Virus record (IMG/VR): IMGVR_UViG_3300021425_001670
Span: 1-25,766 of that record
DNA length: 25,766 nt
DNA from: a virus
Direction: 5' to 3' (one strand)
The translations under genes were made by a program, and so were the position numbers. Position 1 is the first letter of the stretch; the number at the start of each line of letters is the position of its first letter. Below are positions 8,057-17,058 of the stretch, piece after piece. The notes beneath the pieces were generated by a model. That model searched no databases, was not told the origin of the DNA, and worked only from the letters and a program-made list of their open reading frames with translations.

Positions 8057-8385
8057 TGTTTTATCCTAATATCATATCGTTGTGGTTGTTGAAATAGTTT
8101 GTTGGTATCTTCGAATCGACCCTCTTCAATGGTGTCCATCCAAATGACAAAGTCAGCTTCTGCAATATCTCTCAACTCAGAAGTTGGACATACAAAATCT
8201 ACAATGCCCCATTGCCCACTCATGTAGCGAGCTTGGTTCTGTCTACCAATAGGTGAAAAATCCCAGTTGTCTGTATACTCTCTAACAGTATCAGCATTGT
8301 GGTGAGGGATTAAAAAGTGGTAGGACAACTCCCTTGCGAGAGTTGTCTTTCCTGAGCCAGGCAGCCCCATGATGAGTATCTTCAT
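7951..8385 (-). CDS. P-loop kinase (adenylylsulfate-kinase-like)
   Basis: 144 residues. MKILIMGLPGSGKTTLAREL gives a Walker A loop (GLPGSGKT, 7-14); HHNADTVRE and FVIWMDTIEEGRFEDTNKLF follow the APS-kinase-like pattern. The recognisable fold ends near residue 108 (QPQRYDI). The last 35 residues are encoded where the next gene's conserved HxGH region is read in another frame, so this tail is probably not conserved. ATG at 8385 overlaps the DUF932 stop as TAATG. It likely phosphorylates a small molecule and hands it to the adjacent nucleotidyltransferase; APS itself is not certain as substrate. Confidence 0.8.
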   Translation of the reverse strand: MKILIMGLPGSGKTTLARELSYHFLIPHHNADTVREYTDNWDFSPIGRQNQARYMSGQWGIVDFVCPTSELRDIAEADFVIWMDTIEEGRFEDTNKLFQQPQRYDIRIKQWIGLNQLRKCLEDFSPGIKGIQSFLSDALPKLVK

Positions 8386-9335
8386 TAGGACACCAGCGCG
8401 TATTCCACAGCTTTCTCAACTGCTTTGACTTTGCGTGATTGGTTTACACCGAACCATGCAGAGGTTAAACGAGTATCGTTCTCACGACCCATCTGGTGGT
8501 CAGTCAGGTAGGTCACACTGTTCAGTGCTTGCCACCATGTTCCCTCACCGAACTCTGCGCCAGGCTGAGTTTCCAGAACTTCATATGCTTTCTTTGCATT
8601 CGTGGTCAGGTCTTCGATAGTCTTGACATTGACTTCTTTCTTACCTTGATAGGTGCGAGGGAATACCTCGTTGTAGTAACCAATCAGTGCATCCATGTCG
8701 AAGCGTTTGGACGAAAGAAACTCTGCGGTCTCTTTATACTGTTGGAACTTCTCAGATGCGATACCCAAAGTCTCTTTTACTGAGTCAGGGTTGAATGCAG
8801 TGCGGTGGTTCAGAGACACCGAGTTTGCAACCTTCTGACCAAGCGACAGTGACAGTGTGTTGTTGCACACTACACGAATCGGTGTGAACCGAATGTCGAT
8901 TGACTTACCATACTGATGTGGGTTGGAGAACAAGAGATATGAGTCAACTTGGTCTTCACCAAGAATCGTAAAGGTGTCTTTCACCTTTGCAAGACCCCAT
9001 ACCATGTTACCATCTTTGAGTGAACCAGCGGTGTGCATTTCCATGTCACCCGCAAGGACATACTCAGAGAAGAACTCAAACGCTTCTTCATTCTGAACGG
9101 GATTCCATCCTTTACCGATGACATCCAGAACTTTGTTGTCAGAGGAACGGACAAGTGCTTGTTTGCCTTCCACTGTTGCACCAGATGATGTTACGAGGTC
9201 TTCTTTCTCAACTGTCCAGTCCAGACCAGCCTTCTCCATCATCTGACGGGGAGTCAGGTCATTTGATACAGGAACACCAAGTCCGTGCCACGGAACTTCT
9301 CCTGCGTATGCCATTGTTTCTACTGCATGTGCCAT
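8385..9335 (-). CDS. DUF932 phage/plasmid-like protein
   Basis: 316 residues. MAHAVETMAYAGEVPWHGLGVPV at the N-terminus is the hallmark of the DUF932 family found on phages and plasmids. Family function is not established. The body is soluble, with conserved pieces such as FTPIRVVCNNTL and a C-terminal TSAWFGVNQSRK. ATG 9335 is chosen over TTG 9341 because AAGGAG lies 7 nt ahead of it. A strong sigma70-like promoter stands directly upstream with a leader of about 28 nt, so this should be an early gene leading the run toward 6373. Confidence 0.88.
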   Translation of the reverse strand: MAHAVETMAYAGEVPWHGLGVPVSNDLTPRQMMEKAGLDWTVEKEDLVTSSGATVEGKQALVRSSDNKVLDVIGKGWNPVQNEEAFEFFSEYVLAGDMEMHTAGSLKDGNMVWGLAKVKDTFTILGEDQVDSYLLFSNPHQYGKSIDIRFTPIRVVCNNTLSLSLGQKVANSVSLNHRTAFNPDSVKETLGIASEKFQQYKETAEFLSSKRFDMDALIGYYNEVFPRTYQGKKEVNVKTIEDLTTNAKKAYEVLETQPGAEFGEGTWWQALNSVTYLTDHQMGRENDTRLTSAWFGVNQSRKVKAVEKAVEYALVS

Positions 9336-9895: not shown

Positions 9896-11687
9896 TGGTC
9901 TCTTCCTTACCCTTCACCTTGATATCACCAATCTTCTTGGTCGGTATATCAATCTGGTCATTTGTGTATGACGATATGATTGTCTTGTAATCTATGTAGT
10001 CACCCCGTGCGGCAGTGGCTTCTAATCTTGCGGCGAGATTGACCGCATCTCCAATAACTGAGTAATCAAATCTGGATTCAGAACCCATATTCCCAACAAT
10101 ACAGTCACCAGTATTAACTCCAGTCCCCACGTTGATAGGAGGGAGACCACGCGCCTCATATTTTTCTCGAAGTTCATTTGTCTTCTCCTCAATCTCGATA
10201 GCAGACTTTACCGCCATCTCTGCGTGGTTGGGACAAGGCAACGGTGCGTTCCAGAATGCCATGATGCAATCACCCATATACTTATCTATTGTTCCACCGT
10301 TGCGTAGAATGATGTTGGTCATCTCGTTCAGGTATTCGTTGATTAGATGCACGAGCCCTTCAGGGTCATCGTTATTTTTGTAGTGTTCTGATATCGGAGT
10401 GAACCCACAGATGTCCATAAACAGGAATGTCATCTCTTTGCGTTCACCACCCAGTTTCATCAGGGACGGGTCACTTGCAAGCATGTCAACCATGTCGGGT
10501 GATAGGTATGTCCCGAACTGACCCTTAATCATTTGCTTCGCTTTGAACTGTGTATAGAACTGAACAAACGAACCGTGTGCAAAGATTATAACAAATGTTA
10601 TAACAGGGAAGATAGGGTCAAGGAGCATGAAGGTATTGTCGAATATCAGTGACGCACCATACACGAAACTTGAACTGATAATGAGAAAGACTACCCCCGA
10701 AATCACGATGGAAAGTTTAGATAACATGAATAGTATCACTATCGATACCACAATCGTTGCGAAAAGTTCATAAAACTTGAACTCTGGCATTCGTGTGATA
10801 GTCACACCGTCAATCATTGTCTTCAACAGGTTTGCCTGAATGTCGTGCGGATACATCGCACCGATAGGTGTAGAGACGAGTGACGAACCCTCAAAGGTCG
10901 CGCCTAGTATCGCAATACTTCCGCTGGGTATCTGGTCTATCTCTGTGAAGGAATATCTCTTGAACTCATTCCAGAATGCAATACGCACATTACTATTATC
11001 GTCTGTCTGCACCACATCGAACTTCGGTATGCGAACAAATCGTATTCCATAATCGTCCGTCTTGACTTGATATGATATGTCCCCCGCAGCCACGCGAAGG
11101 ATATCCAGTGCGAAGGCAGGATACATGCGTCCCTCGAAGTTCTCAATCAAGGGGACTCTGCGTGTGATACCATCAACATCCTGTGTTGCAGAGATTGTTC
11201 CGTAACCGATTGCCGCATCCATGATTTCGGGTCGTGCAAATAACATACCTTTAATCTCTGGTCGAAACTCTACCGCATCACGTTCCCCAAAGGTTGCAAC
11301 ACCGACAGGTTTTGGTCTGCGGTCTGTGTTTGTTTTGTTGCTCGGCGCGACTGCGATTACAGCATTCATATCAAACAGAGTATCCGCAAATGCCTCGTCA
11401 CCCCCAAACCTGTCTGGTTCTGACAATAAGATATTGATACCCAGTATCGAGTTGTTCAGTTTCACCAACTCATTTGCCATCGTTTCGCGGGGGATTGGAT
11501 ACTGACCGAACTCCTCTAGAGTTGATTCGTCAATATCAATAAGGACAATCTGTTCGGATTGTTTTGATTCCTGTCCTCTTTGCATTGAGTCAAAGAAAGA
11601 CAGTCTCGCACTTTCAAGGAGAAAGGGGTCGAGCAGTCTCAGGGTTACCATCAACCCCAGTGTAATAAGGACATGCCATGTTTTCAT
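9870..11687 (-). CDS. CHASE2-domain adenylate cyclase (class III)
   Basis: 605 residues. An N-terminal membrane segment (4-24) is followed by a CHASE2 extracytoplasmic sensor (about 30-300, with IVLIDIDESTLEEFGQYPIPR), three membrane helices (about 305-375) and a cytoplasmic class III cyclase (about 415-600). Catalytic residues look intact: metal Asp 425 (FLFMDICGFT) and Asp 473 (YMGDCIMAFW), Lys 469 and Asp 541 at the purine-selectivity positions (adenine-type), Asn 550 and Arg 554 for the transition state. It should make cAMP from ATP in response to a periplasmic cue. The start overlaps the FecR gene stop (ATGA), and FecR/CHASE2-cyclase neighbours are also seen in bacterial genomes. A full-length membrane cyclase is very unusual cargo for a phage. 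Confidence 0.93.
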   Translation of the reverse strand: MKTWHVLITLGLMVTLRLLDPFLLESARLSFFDSMQRGQESKQSEQIVLIDIDESTLEEFGQYPIPRETMANELVKLNNSILGINILLSEPDRFGGDEAFADTLFDMNAVIAVAPSNKTNTDRRPKPVGVATFGERDAVEFRPEIKGMLFARPEIMDAAIGYGTISATQDVDGITRRVPLIENFEGRMYPAFALDILRVAAGDISYQVKTDDYGIRFVRIPKFDVVQTDDNSNVRIAFWNEFKRYSFTEIDQIPSGSIAILGATFEGSSLVSTPIGAMYPHDIQANLLKTMIDGVTITRMPEFKFYELFATIVVSIVILFMLSKLSIVISGVVFLIISSSFVYGASLIFDNTFMLLDPIFPVITFVIIFAHGSFVQFYTQFKAKQMIKGQFGTYLSPDMVDMLASDPSLMKLGGERKEMTFLFMDICGFTPISEHYKNNDDPEGLVHLINEYLNEMTNIILRNGGTIDKYMGDCIMAFWNAPLPCPNHAEMAVKSAIEIEEKTNELREKYEARGLPPINVGTGVNTGDCIVGNMGSESRFDYSVIGDAVNLAARLEATAARGDYIDYKTIISSYTNDQIDIPTKKIGDIKVKGKEETIEIFSPSS

Positions 11688-12790
11688 TGTTTGATATTTA
11701 TAGTAGTATTACCACCACCATTGACCATGATGGGGTCAAGTTCTTTCCCTTCTGTGTCGATATTGATTGTAGTCTCTTCATCACTTGCAACCGATATCTC
11801 TATTTGTGATGTGACATTACGAATCATCGTAATCTTATCACCCTCAACAATCGTGCTGATTTGAGTCACTGTATCAAAGCCCTCGCTTGTCCCTTCTACG
11901 ACAGTATCACCCTTATCCTCTTTCTCTTTCAACAATTCTGCGTCTAGGTCAGAGTAGTTATCTAGTAGGTTTTCGAGAAGTTCCACATCAAGGAAATTGA
12001 TATCAAGTTCTGTAAATTCCAGATAGTCACGTTCTAGTTCCTCGTCTTCTAATAGTTGTTCATCGAGAAAGTCGATATCAAGAGGATTGATATTCTTACT
12101 ACTATTCACTGAAGTATAGAACTCTTGTTCCGTCATTCTCTCTCGCGGTGGATTAATAATCAAAATGTTATCCAGCATATCTAGAGTCAGGTCTAGAATG
12201 GCAGGATTGCTGGGAGGCATCTCACTCACAGAGGTTGTGGTGGATTCAAACGGTTTGTTCAACACCACCTCACCAGTCATAGTTGCAACAATAATCTCAC
12301 CCGATGATATCCCATTCACATCGGGCAACAATACTACAAGTGTTCGACCAAACTCGTCTACGGTCACAGTAAAGTCTGTGCCGCGAATACCGATTGAGGC
12401 AGTCGGTGTTCTCAATCTAATATTCTCTTTTTCAATCGTCCCAAGTTTGCCTGTAATGAAACGAGCAGTTCCCTGCGCGAATGTCATTGCAAGGTCAGAC
12501 TTGCTTGGGTCATCATCAAACACCACATTGTCAATCACAATGCGTGTGTGTTCGGTCATGCGAAGTTTCGAATCATCGACAAACTTCACCTGCATACGCC
12601 CCTCGCCCGTGCGAAGGTCGTCTTTTGATATTATGTCGAACCCTTTTTCAGGTTCGATTTCATTTGTGTCTCTAACTACTTGTCTCCAGCCGACTGCACG
12701 GTCAATGAGACCCACATCCTTACTGGCAGCCTGTAGCGGTGCCAGAATCAGACTGAGAAACACATAAGGTATTATCCGTAGTTGCGTCAC
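11684..12790 (-). CDS. Exported FecR-domain protein
   Basis: 368 residues from GTG 12790, which follows GAGGGTTCAG; a TTG at 12808 is the alternative. A signal peptide (PYVFLSLILAPLQA, about 8-21) predicts export to the periplasm. The FecR domain (about 30-175) includes SDLAMTFAQGTARFITG and the hallmark TPTASIGIRGTDFTV (about 128-142). The C-terminal half is highly acidic with an internal repeat: DIDFLDEQLLE (about 238) and DINFLDVELLE (about 263). FecR domains relay envelope signals; here the partner is probably the CHASE2 sensor encoded next, overlapping as ATGA. It overlaps the curlin-like gene by 71 bp at its 5' end. No sigma-factor gene is adjacent, so the classical FecI/FecR arrangement is not indicated. 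Confidence 0.85.
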   Translation of the reverse strand: MTQLRIIPYVFLSLILAPLQAASKDVGLIDRAVGWRQVVRDTNEIEPEKGFDIISKDDLRTGEGRMQVKFVDDSKLRMTEHTRIVIDNVVFDDDPSKSDLAMTFAQGTARFITGKLGTIEKENIRLRTPTASIGIRGTDFTVTVDEFGRTLVVLLPDVNGISSGEIIVATMTGEVVLNKPFESTTTSVSEMPPSNPAILDLTLDMLDNILIINPPRERMTEQEFYTSVNSSKNINPLDIDFLDEQLLEDEELERDYLEFTELDINFLDVELLENLLDNYSDLDAELLKEKEDKGDTVVEGTSEGFDTVTQISTIVEGDKITMIRNVTSQIEISVASDEETTINIDTEGKELDPIMVNGGGNTTINIKQ

Positions 12791-13457
12791 CTGAACCCTC
12801 GATTTCAATGCTTAATGTATCGGTCTGCAATGTAGACTGTTGGTCTACTTGTATGTCCCAATAGTTGGTCGTTCCTACACCGTCAATGGTGAGAGAGTGA
12901 CCATCGTAACCGTCAACATCGATGTCGATAGTAACATTACTTCCCAAGAAGTCGATAGCATTTGTTGCGTTGTTCGCATCGATATCTGCGCCTACATTAT
13001 TGTAGTCACCATCGATAGTCCAGTCAACATCTGCTCCTGTTGCTTGGTCATTGTTACCTACAGCAAGGTCAAGCGTATTGTTGTTCCCGTCAAGGTCAAT
13101 CATAAAGTCTCCACTACCAGCACCGTAGGTATCCGTTGGGTCAATCTCAATCTTGACTGTGTTTGTATCACCGTCAACATCAAGGTCTAATACATTACTG
13201 TCACCGATGATGTTACCCAATACTTTGTTGGTATCTCCAACAGTATCGATGCTGACAGTGACATCAGTCCCGTCAATCTTCATCTTCGTGGTGTCGGTAT
13301 CGTTTGCCCCAATTTTGTTGCCACTACCGTCTTGAGTAATATCGATATCTGCACCAGACCCTACTTGGTCGATGTAGACCGCATTATCAGCCCATACAGG
13401 CGATGTCCCTGCGTTTACTAGGAACAGCATCACAAATATTCTTTGCAAAGTGTTCAT
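12720..13457 (-). CDS. Exported curlin-like repeat protein (putative amyloid subunit)
   Basis: 245 residues from ATG 13457 with a very strong ribosome site (AAAGGAG). A clear signal peptide ends at VWA (23). The mature protein opens with VYIDQVGSGADIDITQDG, the Q-x-G-x-x-N...Q-x-G-x-x-N rhythm of CsgA/CsgB curlin repeats. Later repeats keep the roughly 20-residue spacing and Gly/Asn positions (DGDTNTVKIEID, DGNNNTLDLAV, DGDYNNVGADID) but replace Gln with Asp, giving a very acidic, probably calcium-binding or beta-solenoid chain. Two cysteines close the protein (C232, C244). Its place directly after csgG makes it the likely substrate of that pore. True amyloid formation is unproven. Confidence 0.75.
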   Translation of the reverse strand: MNTLQRIFVMLFLVNAGTSPVWADNAVYIDQVGSGADIDITQDGSGNKIGANDTDTTKMKIDGTDVTVSIDTVGDTNKVLGNIIGDSNVLDLDVDGDTNTVKIEIDPTDTYGAGSGDFMIDLDGNNNTLDLAVGNNDQATGADVDWTIDGDYNNVGADIDANNATNAIDFLGSNVTIDIDVDGYDGHSLTIDGVGTTNYWDIQVDQQSTLQTDTLSIEIEGSGDATTDNTLCVSQSDSGTATGCQ

Positions 13458-13458
13458 C

Positions 13459-14271
13459 TTACTCTCCTTTGAATGTCCAGAACTGTTTTCTGTTTCCAAG
13501 TTCTATCAGTTCTAGGACACCTGTTTCAATCGCCCGTTGAGTGGCAATCGAAACGCTTTCGTTACGGGCAGTTCCAGACTCTATCTCAACGAGTCTAGTT
13601 CCCTGTTCTACATAACGAAATACGTCTCCGCCAAATGCGACAGATAGTATGGTCTTGCTTGTTATGACATCAAGCAATACCTCACCAGTCGCAACACTTA
13701 TCAACCTCATGTTGATTGTCACCGTGTCACGACTAAACTCTCTGGAAGAGCCGATGCCGAGATATCTCGCACCCGCACCTCCACTTTCGGTAGAGTGGTC
13801 ATATCCCACAATACCCCCTGCAATAATCATACCAGCGAATGTCAATGCTGGTAGTTTCTTTGCACCTTTTCCGTCATAAGACTCTCGTGTCTGTCTTATG
13901 AGTTGTCTCTCTTTCGTTAACCAGTCCAATGCAGTTCTATCGACTACCTTGAAGAACTTACCATTAGACGCACGAGTCAAAGCACGAATCAGATATACAT
14001 CTGGTGCTTGAGTCACAACAGAACTAAATGATGTCCCACCATTTGCGTTTTGTCTTTTCTGCCCTGTCTGGTCGGTGAACGAATAAATCGCTACCGTTGG
14101 TTTGCGTATCGGCGGTTCAATGTTCTGTAGTTGTTCTATGAGAAGATTCGATTGAACTTTGACTGGTTCTGGTTGTGCTGGTATATCCCAGCTAGTCCCA
14201 CCTAGTGTGGTGCAACTAGAAACCAAAATCGCCGATAGGAACAGTAATGACAGTCGTGCTACCATCTTCAT
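13459..14271 (-). CDS. csgG: CsgG, curli secretion pore lipoprotein
   Basis: 270 residues, near the E. coli CsgG length. A lipoprotein signal ends in ILVSSC (Cys 20). Conserved CsgG features are visible: VAIYSFTDQTGQ (60-71), SFSSVVTQA, LIRALTRASNGKFFKVVDR, IAGGIVGYDHSTESGGAGARYLGIG, TVTINMRLISVATGEVLLDV, TSKTILSVAFGGDVFRYVE and the RAIETGVLELIELG end. In bacteria CsgG forms a nonameric outer-membrane channel that exports curli subunits. Its start overlaps csgF by 56 bp and its stop is one base from the curlin-like start, so the three are translationally coupled. CsgE, the periplasmic adaptor, is not seen in the window and may come from the host or be unnecessary. Confidence 0.95.
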   Translation of the reverse strand: MKMVARLSLLFLSAILVSSCTTLGGTSWDIPAQPEPVKVQSNLLIEQLQNIEPPIRKPTVAIYSFTDQTGQKRQNANGGTSFSSVVTQAPDVYLIRALTRASNGKFFKVVDRTALDWLTKERQLIRQTRESYDGKGAKKLPALTFAGMIIAGGIVGYDHSTESGGAGARYLGIGSSREFSRDTVTINMRLISVATGEVLLDVITSKTILSVAFGGDVFRYVEQGTRLVEIESGTARNESVSIATQRAIETGVLELIELGNRKQFWTFKGE

Positions 14272-14749
14272 CGGTTACCGTTAACTCCACTGTGTTTTCT
14301 ACATCATCTTTTACATATGAGATACCCGCCCCTTCGATTTCAAATTCACCTTGATTGGTTGGGTTCTCACCGAACATCTCTTCCACAAGTTGTCTGGACA
14401 GTGTAGAGTAAATTCGACTTTCTACGTTTCGTATAAACTTAGCAAGTGTCGTATTCTTTGCGTCTCGTTCTATTTCTTTTTGTAGGTCTTCTAGTTCTTG
14501 TTCTAACGCTTGTTTGCGTGAGGTCTCTTGGTTCTCAATCGTCAGATAGTGTGATGACTGATTGATACCATTGAATGACGGGGATTTGAAGTTATGTTCG
14601 ATTGGTGCGCCTATCGCATGACCTATACCCAGACCCCAAAGGATACCCACAACAAACCACAATACAGGACTAAAGATTAACTCTCCCTTAGTCTTTCCTG
14701 CATTGACCATCAAATCCCATGACTTTTGTTCTCTAGGTGTTCTCTTCAT
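14216..14749 (-). CDS. csgF: CsgF-like curli assembly protein with N-terminal membrane segment
   Basis: 177 residues. From about residue 52 it matches CsgF in layout: NFKSPSFNG (CsgG-binding segment, RNPNFGGNP in E. coli), SSHYLTIENQETSRK, LAKFIRNVESRIYSTLSRQL, and a C-terminal VELTVTDEDGSTTVITVPIGDFGF like the NVTDRKTGQTSTIQV end of E. coli CsgF. CsgF plugs the CsgG channel at the cell surface and helps nucleate fibres. Unusually, about 25 charged residues precede a long hydrophobic stretch (25-48), much longer than a normal signal peptide; ATG 14710 would shorten this. ATG 14749 has AAAGG 7 nt upstream and overlaps the previous gene by 17 bp. Confidence 0.85.
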   Translation of the reverse strand: MKRTPREQKSWDLMVNAGKTKGELIFSPVLWFVVGILWGLGIGHAIGAPIEHNFKSPSFNGINQSSHYLTIENQETSRKQALEQELEDLQKEIERDAKNTTLAKFIRNVESRIYSTLSRQLVEEMFGENPTNQGEFEIEGAGISYVKDDVENTVELTVTDEDGSTTVITVPIGDFGF

Positions 14750-15267: not shown

Positions 15268-15275
15268 TATTTATA
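15268..15275 (-). promoter_or_regulatory. T4-type late promoter for the curli/FecR/cyclase operon
   Basis: An exact TATAAATA (context CTTATAAATAGAAAC) sits between a terminator and the first gene of the seven-gene run. By the T4 rule the transcript would start within a few bases of the ATG at 15262, so the first gene may be read from a very short leader. No early-type promoter was found between 15262 and 9870, which points to late-only expression. Confidence 0.7.
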
Positions 15276-15409: not shown

Positions 15410-16438
15410 CTATATCGCAAACTTCTTACCCTCTTCGTATTCTTTTTTACGAATCGAGTCTACCAGTTCAAGAAACTCTCCACCATTCATGACTTTACCA
15501 TCAACCACATATCTGTCTTGATGACCTTCGCCTGGATATAGTTTATCCATATATGAGACACTTCGCCACATCTTTCTCATGTTACCGTCTTTAATATCGG
15601 TTGGACGGGCGTGTAGAGTGATGTTCTGTTCCATATAGATTACCTGACCATCTTTCCAATCGTGGGTGTAGATGTATTCGGGACGATTGATTTTTTCCCA
15701 GAGATAATCTTTGAACTTCTTACTTTCTTCCTCTGACATACCATAAAACTTATGAAACAGTGAGCCAGGAAAGTGAATACCATAGATGCCAGCGGGTGTC
15801 TTTTGTCTCAGACCAGACATCATACCATCAACAGGGACTTGATTGAACTTGACAAGTTGCTTTTGTTCGTCCATCAAATCCTGTGTAAAGTTATCTCTGT
15901 TCCAACGATACACACTCTGGAGTTCATCAACCATCGTTTTGTCCTCGTGGTTGAGTTTGTCATATGCCTCTTTGGTGCATAGAAATGCAGTCTGCGAGTT
16001 CTCTGTGTGTTCAACAGATACCAGACCGATAACACGGTCACCGTCACCTAATGCAACTTGGTCACTATGCCATCCCAGTTTACCATTCGCAAAGATACCT
16101 TTGGGGCGACCCTTTTCGTTCTTTTGAAAGGTCACAACAGACATTGCGCTTCTGTATTCTGGTTCAATCTCGGAAGAACTATTCAGAATATTCAAACGAA
16201 GACTATTCCAATGTCTTCCCTTCATAGTCCCGTGAGAGGTTGCCATCTCTACGATAGAGTGTGTAGGAGTTCCCCACTGCATCTGAATTTCATATGTTCG
16301 CTTCTGGTCGAGTTTCTGGTCTACCAGAACGACAGACTCATTCGCGATAAGTCTACCCAAGTCTGCGATATTCTCATCAGAGTAGATATCAAAGTCATAC
16401 GCTTCTACTGCGTTATTTTTTAGAGTTCTTACTTTCAT
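15410..16438 (-). CDS. TauD/TfdA-like 2OG-Fe(II) dioxygenase
   Basis: 342 residues. GWHSDQ gives the H-x-D metal pair (H124, D126), and [21 protein letters not shown] supplies the distal His 276 and Arg 292 for 2-oxoglutarate; the spacing of about 150 residues fits the TauD family. It should be a soluble Fe(II)/2-oxoglutarate dioxygenase; sulfonate, amino-acid or other substrates cannot be told apart. It starts 22 bp after the tRNA-Pro 3' end and lacks its own clear promoter, so it is probably co-transcribed with the tmRNA and tRNA. The ribosome site is weak. A strong terminator follows. Confidence 0.85.
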
Positions 16439-16459: not shown

Positions 16460-16536
16460 TGGTCGGGGTTGGAAGATTCGAACTTCCGACCTCTCGCTCC
16501 CAAAGCGAGCGCACTACCAGACTGTGCTAAACCCCG
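16460..16536 (-). tRNA. tRNA-Pro (UGG)
   Basis: A 77-nt gene with a complete cloverleaf: acceptor CGGGGTT/AACCCCG, D arm GCAC...GTGC, anticodon stem CTCGC/GCGAG around loop TTTGGGA (anticodon TGG), T arm GGAAG-TTCGAAT-CTTCC, discriminator A and encoded CCA. It reads CCN proline codons, mainly CCA and CCG. It begins about 7 nt after the end of the tmRNA coding piece, so both probably come from one precursor that RNase P and other nucleases separate. Confidence 0.96.
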
Positions 16537-16581
16537 CAAAAGTGGGGACTTCTGTTGCTAGGCGTCCCCTGACCCCGAAGA

Positions 16582-16626
16582 TTATGCCGCTAGGCGGATA
16601 TCTTCATATGCATTGTTATCGTTTGC
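16582..16626 (-). other. tmRNA tag reading frame
   Basis: Resume codon GCA at 16626-16624; the encoded tag is ANDNNAYEDIRLAA followed by TAA. The ANDN opening is typical of alphaproteobacterial tags and the LAA end is the ClpXP-type degradation signal. The middle (YEDIR) is not a tag I recognise. Confidence 0.92.
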
Positions 16627-16716
16627 ATTTACGAGTTTGTTACGGTTAAGGTCGCTTCCACACCTATTCTCCACTCACCTATTCAATACCTGTCGAACCT
16701 AATTCGCCCCCTTCAA

Positions 16717-16781
16717 GAACACACTAGAGCCTGCACATAGGGATTTCCTCAGGCGTGTGCGAACCTTCCCCTAGTGTGTTC
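16717..16781 (-). repeat. Inverted repeat closing the tmRNA intervening segment
   Basis: GAACACACTAG (16781-16771 read on the plus strand as CTAGTGTGTTC) pairs perfectly over 11 bp with 16717-16727. It extends the acceptor stem of the tRNA-like domain into one long hairpin, which presents both mature ends for trimming when the intervening segment is cut out. Confidence 0.85.
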
Positions 16782-16848
16782 ATGGTGGAGGCGGTGGGAA
16801 TCGCACCCACGTCCAGTCTACCTTTTAGTTTGCTTCATCGAATACCTG

Positions 16849-16856
16849 TATTTATA
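16849..16856 (-). promoter_or_regulatory. T4-type late promoter for the tmRNA/tRNA/TauD unit
   Basis: An exact TATAAATA overlapping the last codons of the 68-residue gene. Counting six bases on, the transcript would start near 16843, exactly at the P2 strand ATTCGATG of the acceptor piece, so hardly any 5' trimming would be needed. Confidence 0.7.
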
Positions 16857-17058
16857 CTCCAAGAATATTTCCTGCTTTATTCTGGTCAAGAGTGCCACCA
16901 TTGCGGAGATGTTCCTCTACCTGTTCAAAATAGAATGCGGCATCCTCGTGACCATACTCTTCGAGTGCTTGCTTACATGCCTTGAAGAAAAGCATTTCCT
17001 TCATTGCCGAACCATTCTCAGCACCCGATGCGCGATGCGTCTTTCCTGCGCGTTGCAT
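16852..17058 (-). CDS. Small hypothetical protein, 68 residues
   Basis: No family recognised. The N-terminus is basic (QRAGKTHRASG); the rest looks helical (MKEMLFFKACKQALEEYGHEDAAFYFEQVEEHLRNGG). The ATG overlaps the upstream stop as TAATG, so it is the second gene of the two-gene unit behind the 17464 promoter. Its last codons contain the late promoter of the tmRNA. No signal peptide or membrane segment. Confidence 0.65.
   Translation of the reverse strand: MQRAGKTHRASGAENGSAMKEMLFFKACKQALEEYGHEDAAFYFEQVEEHLRNGGTLDQNKAGNILGV

Follow-up and report, generated by a model that had tools for sequence, protein, structure and literature searches.

Why a lytic phage should carry a ribosome-rescue RNA of its own is the question raised by a locus in the IMG/VR virus record IMGVR_UViG_3300021425_001670. 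Positions 1-25,766 of this record, a linear virus fragment with a G+C content of 43%, were analyzed (hereafter, the window). The minus strand of the window contains, at 16856-16541, a complete circularly permuted (two-piece) tmRNA gene, whose parts and neighbors are listed in Table 1. Very probably, it specifies an alphaproteobacterial-type tmRNA that is borne by the phage, is complete and under structural constraint, and is used late in infection together with host factors.

Table 1. The tmRNA gene of the window, its parts and its neighbors
Feature	Position	Strand	Comment
68-aa ORF, function not assigned (..NKAGNILGV*)	16852..17058	-	TAA stop inside the late box
Candidate T4-type late promoter box TATAAATA	16849..16856	-	Overlap with the stop codon of the 68-aa ORF
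5' leader and acceptor piece	16783..16848	-	
P2, 5' strand	16822-16814	-	
T arm	16810-16794	-	
Acceptor stem, 3' strand	16793-16787	-	
ACCA	16786-16783	-	Encoded in the gene
Intervening segment	16712..16782	-	71 nt, hairpin; expected to be excised
Coding piece	16541..16711	-	
Acceptor stem, 5' strand	16711-16705	-	
TTCGA	16697-16693	-	
P2, 3' strand	16692-16685	-	
Tag frame ANDNNAYEDIRLAA*	16582..16626	-	Resume codon GCA
3' hairpin of the coding piece	16569-16544	-	Conserved CAACAGAA loop
tRNA-Pro(TGG)	16460..16536	-	4 nt past the alpha_tmRNA model end
TauD-family 2-oxoglutarate dioxygenase-like protein	15410-16438	-	3' of tRNA-Pro; only in some close relatives
csgF, csgG, curlin-like repeat protein, FecR-domain protein	11684-14749	-	Curli-type export cassette
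CHASE2 + class III adenylate/guanylate cyclase, 605 aa	9870-11687	-	Pfam CHASE2, Guanylate_cyc

Two Rfam models of permuted tmRNAs match the gene over their full length (cmscan): RF04321 (tmRNA_permuted) at 16844-16582 with 123.8 bits (E 4e-24), and RF01849 (alpha_tmRNA) at 16893-16541 with 116.1 bits (E 2.3e-31), far above the respective cut-offs of 47 and 50 bits. The covariance-model search proposed in an earlier note on this DNA thus bears out its reading of a permuted tmRNA, and every piece listed there can be located, on the minus strand, the note having named no strand. ARAGORN, the usual tool for tmRNAs, makes no call on this gene. The acceptor piece precedes the coding piece, and the two halves pair in the acceptor stem, over the 7 bp originally proposed and with G-U at the third pair, and in P2. 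For P2, the proposed pairing stands, but 7 bp, split into two blocks (3 + 4) that include G-U pairs, fits this slightly shorter and less regular helix better than the proposed 8 bp. The G-U third acceptor pair is an identity element for AlaRS. The intervening segment, noted before as hairpin-forming, indeed folds alone into a hairpin of ~11 bp (-25.6 kcal/mol). Folding of the joined pieces as a single sequence does not reliably recover P2, so the assignment of this helix rests on covariation. The tag reads (A)ANDNNAYEDIRLAA*, that is, 14 residues with a degradation signal ending in A-A and a C-terminal LAA as in ClpXP-type tags.

Covariation was tested in an alignment of 22 viral relatives at 19 pairs of the acceptor stem, the T arm, and the 3+4 bp P2. 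Standard pairs fill 98.1% of the cells, two-sided changes occur at 12 of the 19 pairs, and all three helices show covariation; the observed number of paired cells, two-sided changes, or covariation score was reached in 0 of 500 shuffles. In the control, where the partner strand was slid by 1-3 columns, pairing drops to 40.7-53.1%. The U-G third acceptor pair is invariant in all 22 aligned sequences. Together, the E-values and the covariation exclude a chance origin of the gene. The viral relatives have intervening segments of 3 to 264 nt that are not conserved, the remaining parts being kept; such swings in length with the rest intact are expected if the segment is removed. Since phages sometimes acquire pieces of host ssrA at integration sites (PMC9004378), and many relatives are missing the gene, it might be taken for a fragment of a host gene that was picked up recently, or for a functionless pseudogene. 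This is strongly disfavored by the covariation and is also at odds with the viral-clade kinship, the conserved neighborhood, and the phage-type promoter box described below, and we consider it extremely improbable.

The phage context claimed earlier for the gene is supported by the source of the record, a virus collection, and by T4-like UvsX, a gp41-type helicase, and ThyX, along with which the window encodes a DNA primase and an exonuclease, as well as CsgF, CsgG, FecR, a CHASE2-cyclase, and a TauD-like protein. Combining T4-like replication genes, the csgF-csgG-curlin-FecR cassette, and thyX, as is typical of Melnitz and the pelagimyophages, the window, judging by its gene content, comes from a marine myophage that is T4-like, bears curli genes, and is related to them. 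Curli cassettes in phages have been reported for the pelagimyophages and Melnitz. The nearest annotated curli-cyclase cassettes belong to Pelagibacter phage HTVC008M and phage Melnitz, and the nearest annotated phage by the helicase is C48C1 (Kyanoviridae, 73% identical), which has no permuted tmRNA. No named phage is a close relative by DNA: apart from tRNA-Pro, DNA alignments were obtained only for the helicase of C48C1 (75%) and SsrA of Melnitz (72% over 143 nt).

In close relatives, the gene order is thyX - cell wall hydrolase - u112 - small ORF - tmRNA - CsgG - curlin - FecR - cyclase. The 68-aa upstream ORF adjoins the tmRNA in these genomes too, and TauD sits between the tmRNA and CsgG in most of those that keep the order. 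The cyclase comes after CsgG-curlin-FecR in most CsgG-bearing viral relatives; the solved structure closest to the product of the window gene is the CyaB catalytic domain (3r5g). A cyclase is annotated in the HTVC008M and Melnitz records, and the word "cyclase" is absent from the text of the examined papers on these phages. The presence of the tmRNA is patchy: many relatives with the same gene neighborhood do not have it, which indicates that the gene is dispensable, though useful.

According to the earlier note, the phage acquired the gene from its host line. This is unproven, as the nearest kin are other phages, whereas the tmRNAs sampled from cellular alphaproteobacteria, SAR11 among them, group apart in a clade of their own; by the same token, any acquisition from a host must be old. 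The closest tmRNAs by identity are seven viral ones (81-87%), compared with 61% for the best SAR11 tmRNA and 62% for the best one from another alphaproteobacterium. In the tree, which has to be read with caution because the RNA is short, the window gene lies inside an 8-row viral clade (support 100/100), itself nested in a 42-row viral clade that contains Melnitz (97/90). Cellular alphaproteobacteria including SAR11 fall into a single clade (100/100 with long branches removed). Monophyly of the viral rows as a whole is compatible with the data (p = 0.505). SAR11 is disfavored as a direct donor, given the low identity and its position inside the cellular clade; in the AU test, a grouping of SAR11 with the window's clade is disfavored but not rejected (p = 0.10). 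The tags differ as well, those of SAR11 being short (ANDELALAA, ANNKLALAA) versus the 14-residue viral tag, and no bacterium with the tag of the window was found in a first genome scan. These observations suggest an old viral lineage of tmRNAs in phages rather than fresh captures from hosts. The main value of the window gene is as evidence for such a lineage with a distinctive promoter design.

The candidate promoter is a T4-type late box just upstream of the tmRNA. The window contains five copies of TATAAATA, always on the gene-bearing minus strand, with 0.72 copies expected from shuffles. An exact copy is located 40-56 nt before the T arm in 49 of the 83 distinct viral permuted tmRNA genes with enough upstream sequence, a fraction that describes a sample collected via the tag pattern and protein neighbors and not all phages; shuffled controls yield on average 0.17 and at most 2 such genes. 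None of 46 cellular permuted tmRNA genes has an exact copy at this position. The distance to the T arm is 46 nt in the window and 49 nt in Melnitz, and in one member of the window's clade (L126) the box is retained, but 27 nt further upstream. A gene for a gp33-like late coactivator is present in the relatives tested, for instance, in a 144-kb relative. Conservation of the box thus favors the late promoter postulated earlier; it suggests that TATAAATA of the window is a candidate T4-type late promoter, with transcription predicted, by analogy with T4, to start near 16843. The tRNA-Pro probably shares the tmRNA transcript.

A working tmRNA could also act mainly early, by tagging host or truncated proteins made from host messages that are cut during takeover. 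An early role was proposed by the authors of Melnitz, where ssrA lies directly behind an early promoter (PMC9004378). Of the 50 viral genes with the late box in a somewhat larger set, 30, Melnitz included, also carry a TTGACA-like -35 element, nearly always 17 nt ahead of the box. With this spacing, the site is composite: TATAAA can act as the -10 element and TATAAATA as the late box. For Melnitz, our reading agrees with the early promoter of its authors, and the late box would add a late promoter at the same place. At 15-19 nt from the box of the window, a sigma70 -35 element is missing, and the window's clade has the late box only. As the box also lies at the end of an upstream coding frame in the window and its clade, overlapping the stop codon, a sigma70 start there is unlikely, although read-through from an upstream early promoter may occur. 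On balance, a mainly early role seems unlikely for the window gene, and we favor its late use. The timing predicted from the catalogue is early and late expression in Melnitz and late-only expression in the window's clade.

No SmpB gene was found in nine phage records including the 144-kb relative (G001), while the control detected SmpB in 10 of 14 genomes. For the window, a 25.8-kb fragment, this search is relevant only via the relatives. Since a phage-encoded SmpB was thus not found in them, SmpB of the host is presumably used. Late in infection, the host RNA polymerase modified by the phage would start at TATAAATA and produce a precursor of the tmRNA and tRNA-Pro. Host tRNA-processing nucleases would then free the CCA end and excise the intervening hairpin, leaving two pieces joined by pairing in the acceptor stem and in P2. 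Recognition of the G-U pair would let host AlaRS charge the molecule, which host SmpB would then bring to ribosomes that have stalled on broken mRNA. Such a ribosome would append the phage-specified 14-residue tag ending in LAA, the tagged product would be degraded, and the ribosome would return to phage translation. As the gene is divergent, its sequence does not prove that the tmRNA is active with host factors.

The lack of SmpB in the phage relatives would also suit a decoy, a role discussed for the mycobacteriophage DS6A tmRNA, which has no tag: instead of working as a tmRNA, the molecule would titrate SmpB of the host or block trans-translation by the host. Inhibition of endogenous tmRNA by a tag-less tmRNA-like molecule is mentioned, with reference to earlier work, in two papers (PMC4131195, PMC11915505). 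However, the tag frame with its ANDN start and A-A end is kept in nearly all catalogued viral genes (as ANDN..AA), and so are the 3' elements of the coding piece, which a decoy would not need. We therefore regard a decoy as very unlikely and retain the tagging tmRNA. In a wider form, with about even chances of being correct, the proposal is that marine T4-like phages keep their own old lineage of two-piece tmRNAs, which have longer tags than SAR11 and are driven by a composite early/late promoter, and that reduction to a late-only promoter in the window's clade would make trans-translation late, phage-controlled, and reliant on host SmpB.

The earlier note supposed that permuted ssrA had rarely if ever been described in a phage. 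In fact, Buchholz et al. (2022) reported a two-piece tmRNA in the OM43 phage Melnitz, used ARAGORN to find 53 two-piece tmRNAs in phage genomes, with 50 being marine or aquatic, and observed permuted tmRNAs in 17 of 47 Melnitz-like contigs (PMC9004378). A 2025 tmRNA database lists 79 unique bacteriophage tmRNAs (PMC11915505). The phage two-piece tmRNA is therefore already known, and the window provides a well-supported further example. What is added to the 2022 study is the conservation of the late box, the viral kinship of the window gene, and the ARAGORN misses. ARAGORN misses 24 of 90 distinct viral permuted tmRNA regions, including the window and five other members of its clade (L123, L124, L126, L171, and L243). 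Counts of phage two-piece tmRNAs based on it are thus lower bounds, and surveys that use ARAGORN only undercount phage tmRNAs.

The best comparison is with the Methylophilales phage Melnitz (EXVC044M, MZ577097), likewise a T4-like curli-bearing marine myophage with curli genes, thyX, and the cyclase, whose permuted tmRNA has the same order of parts and is ~63% identical to that of the window over the two aligned pieces. The tags are ANDNYVPVDYALAA in Melnitz and ANDNNAYEDIRLAA in the window, and the intervening segment is 142 nt versus 71 nt. Melnitz has a sigma70 promoter overlapping the late box with the 17-nt spacing, whereas the window has the late box only; the host of Melnitz is OM43. 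With the alphaproteobacterial two-piece tmRNA (RF01849, Caulobacter type), the window gene shares the permuted order, the G-U acceptor pair, the ANDN-type tag, and the 3' CAACAGAA hairpin, and it matches the full model. It is divergent, scoring 116 bits versus ~140-310 for the cellular alphaproteobacterial tmRNAs, which have no late box and belong to a separate clade. One-piece tmRNAs of Bacillus phage G, mycobacteriophage Bxz1, and others are phage-borne ssrA genes too (PMC4131195). Like that of the window, they presumably work with host factors. Their gene order is understood to be ordinary, whereas the window gene is permuted.

The tmRNA is followed on its 3' side by a glutamine riboswitch in Melnitz and by tRNA-Pro in the window, where no glutamine riboswitch scores above the Rfam cut-off. 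The Melnitz riboswitch has been described as controlling ssrA. It is situated 3', not 5', of the tmRNA, at 8191-8239 of our Melnitz locus (L270), directly after the tmRNA model end at 8183 and before a late-transcription coactivator gene at 8496, and therefore more likely acts on this downstream gene. Among the other copies of TATAAATA in the window, one (15268-15275, minus strand) immediately precedes a likely ATG (~15265) that opens a run of small-protein and curli genes, and another (11702-11695) lies just upstream of the CHASE2-cyclase gene.
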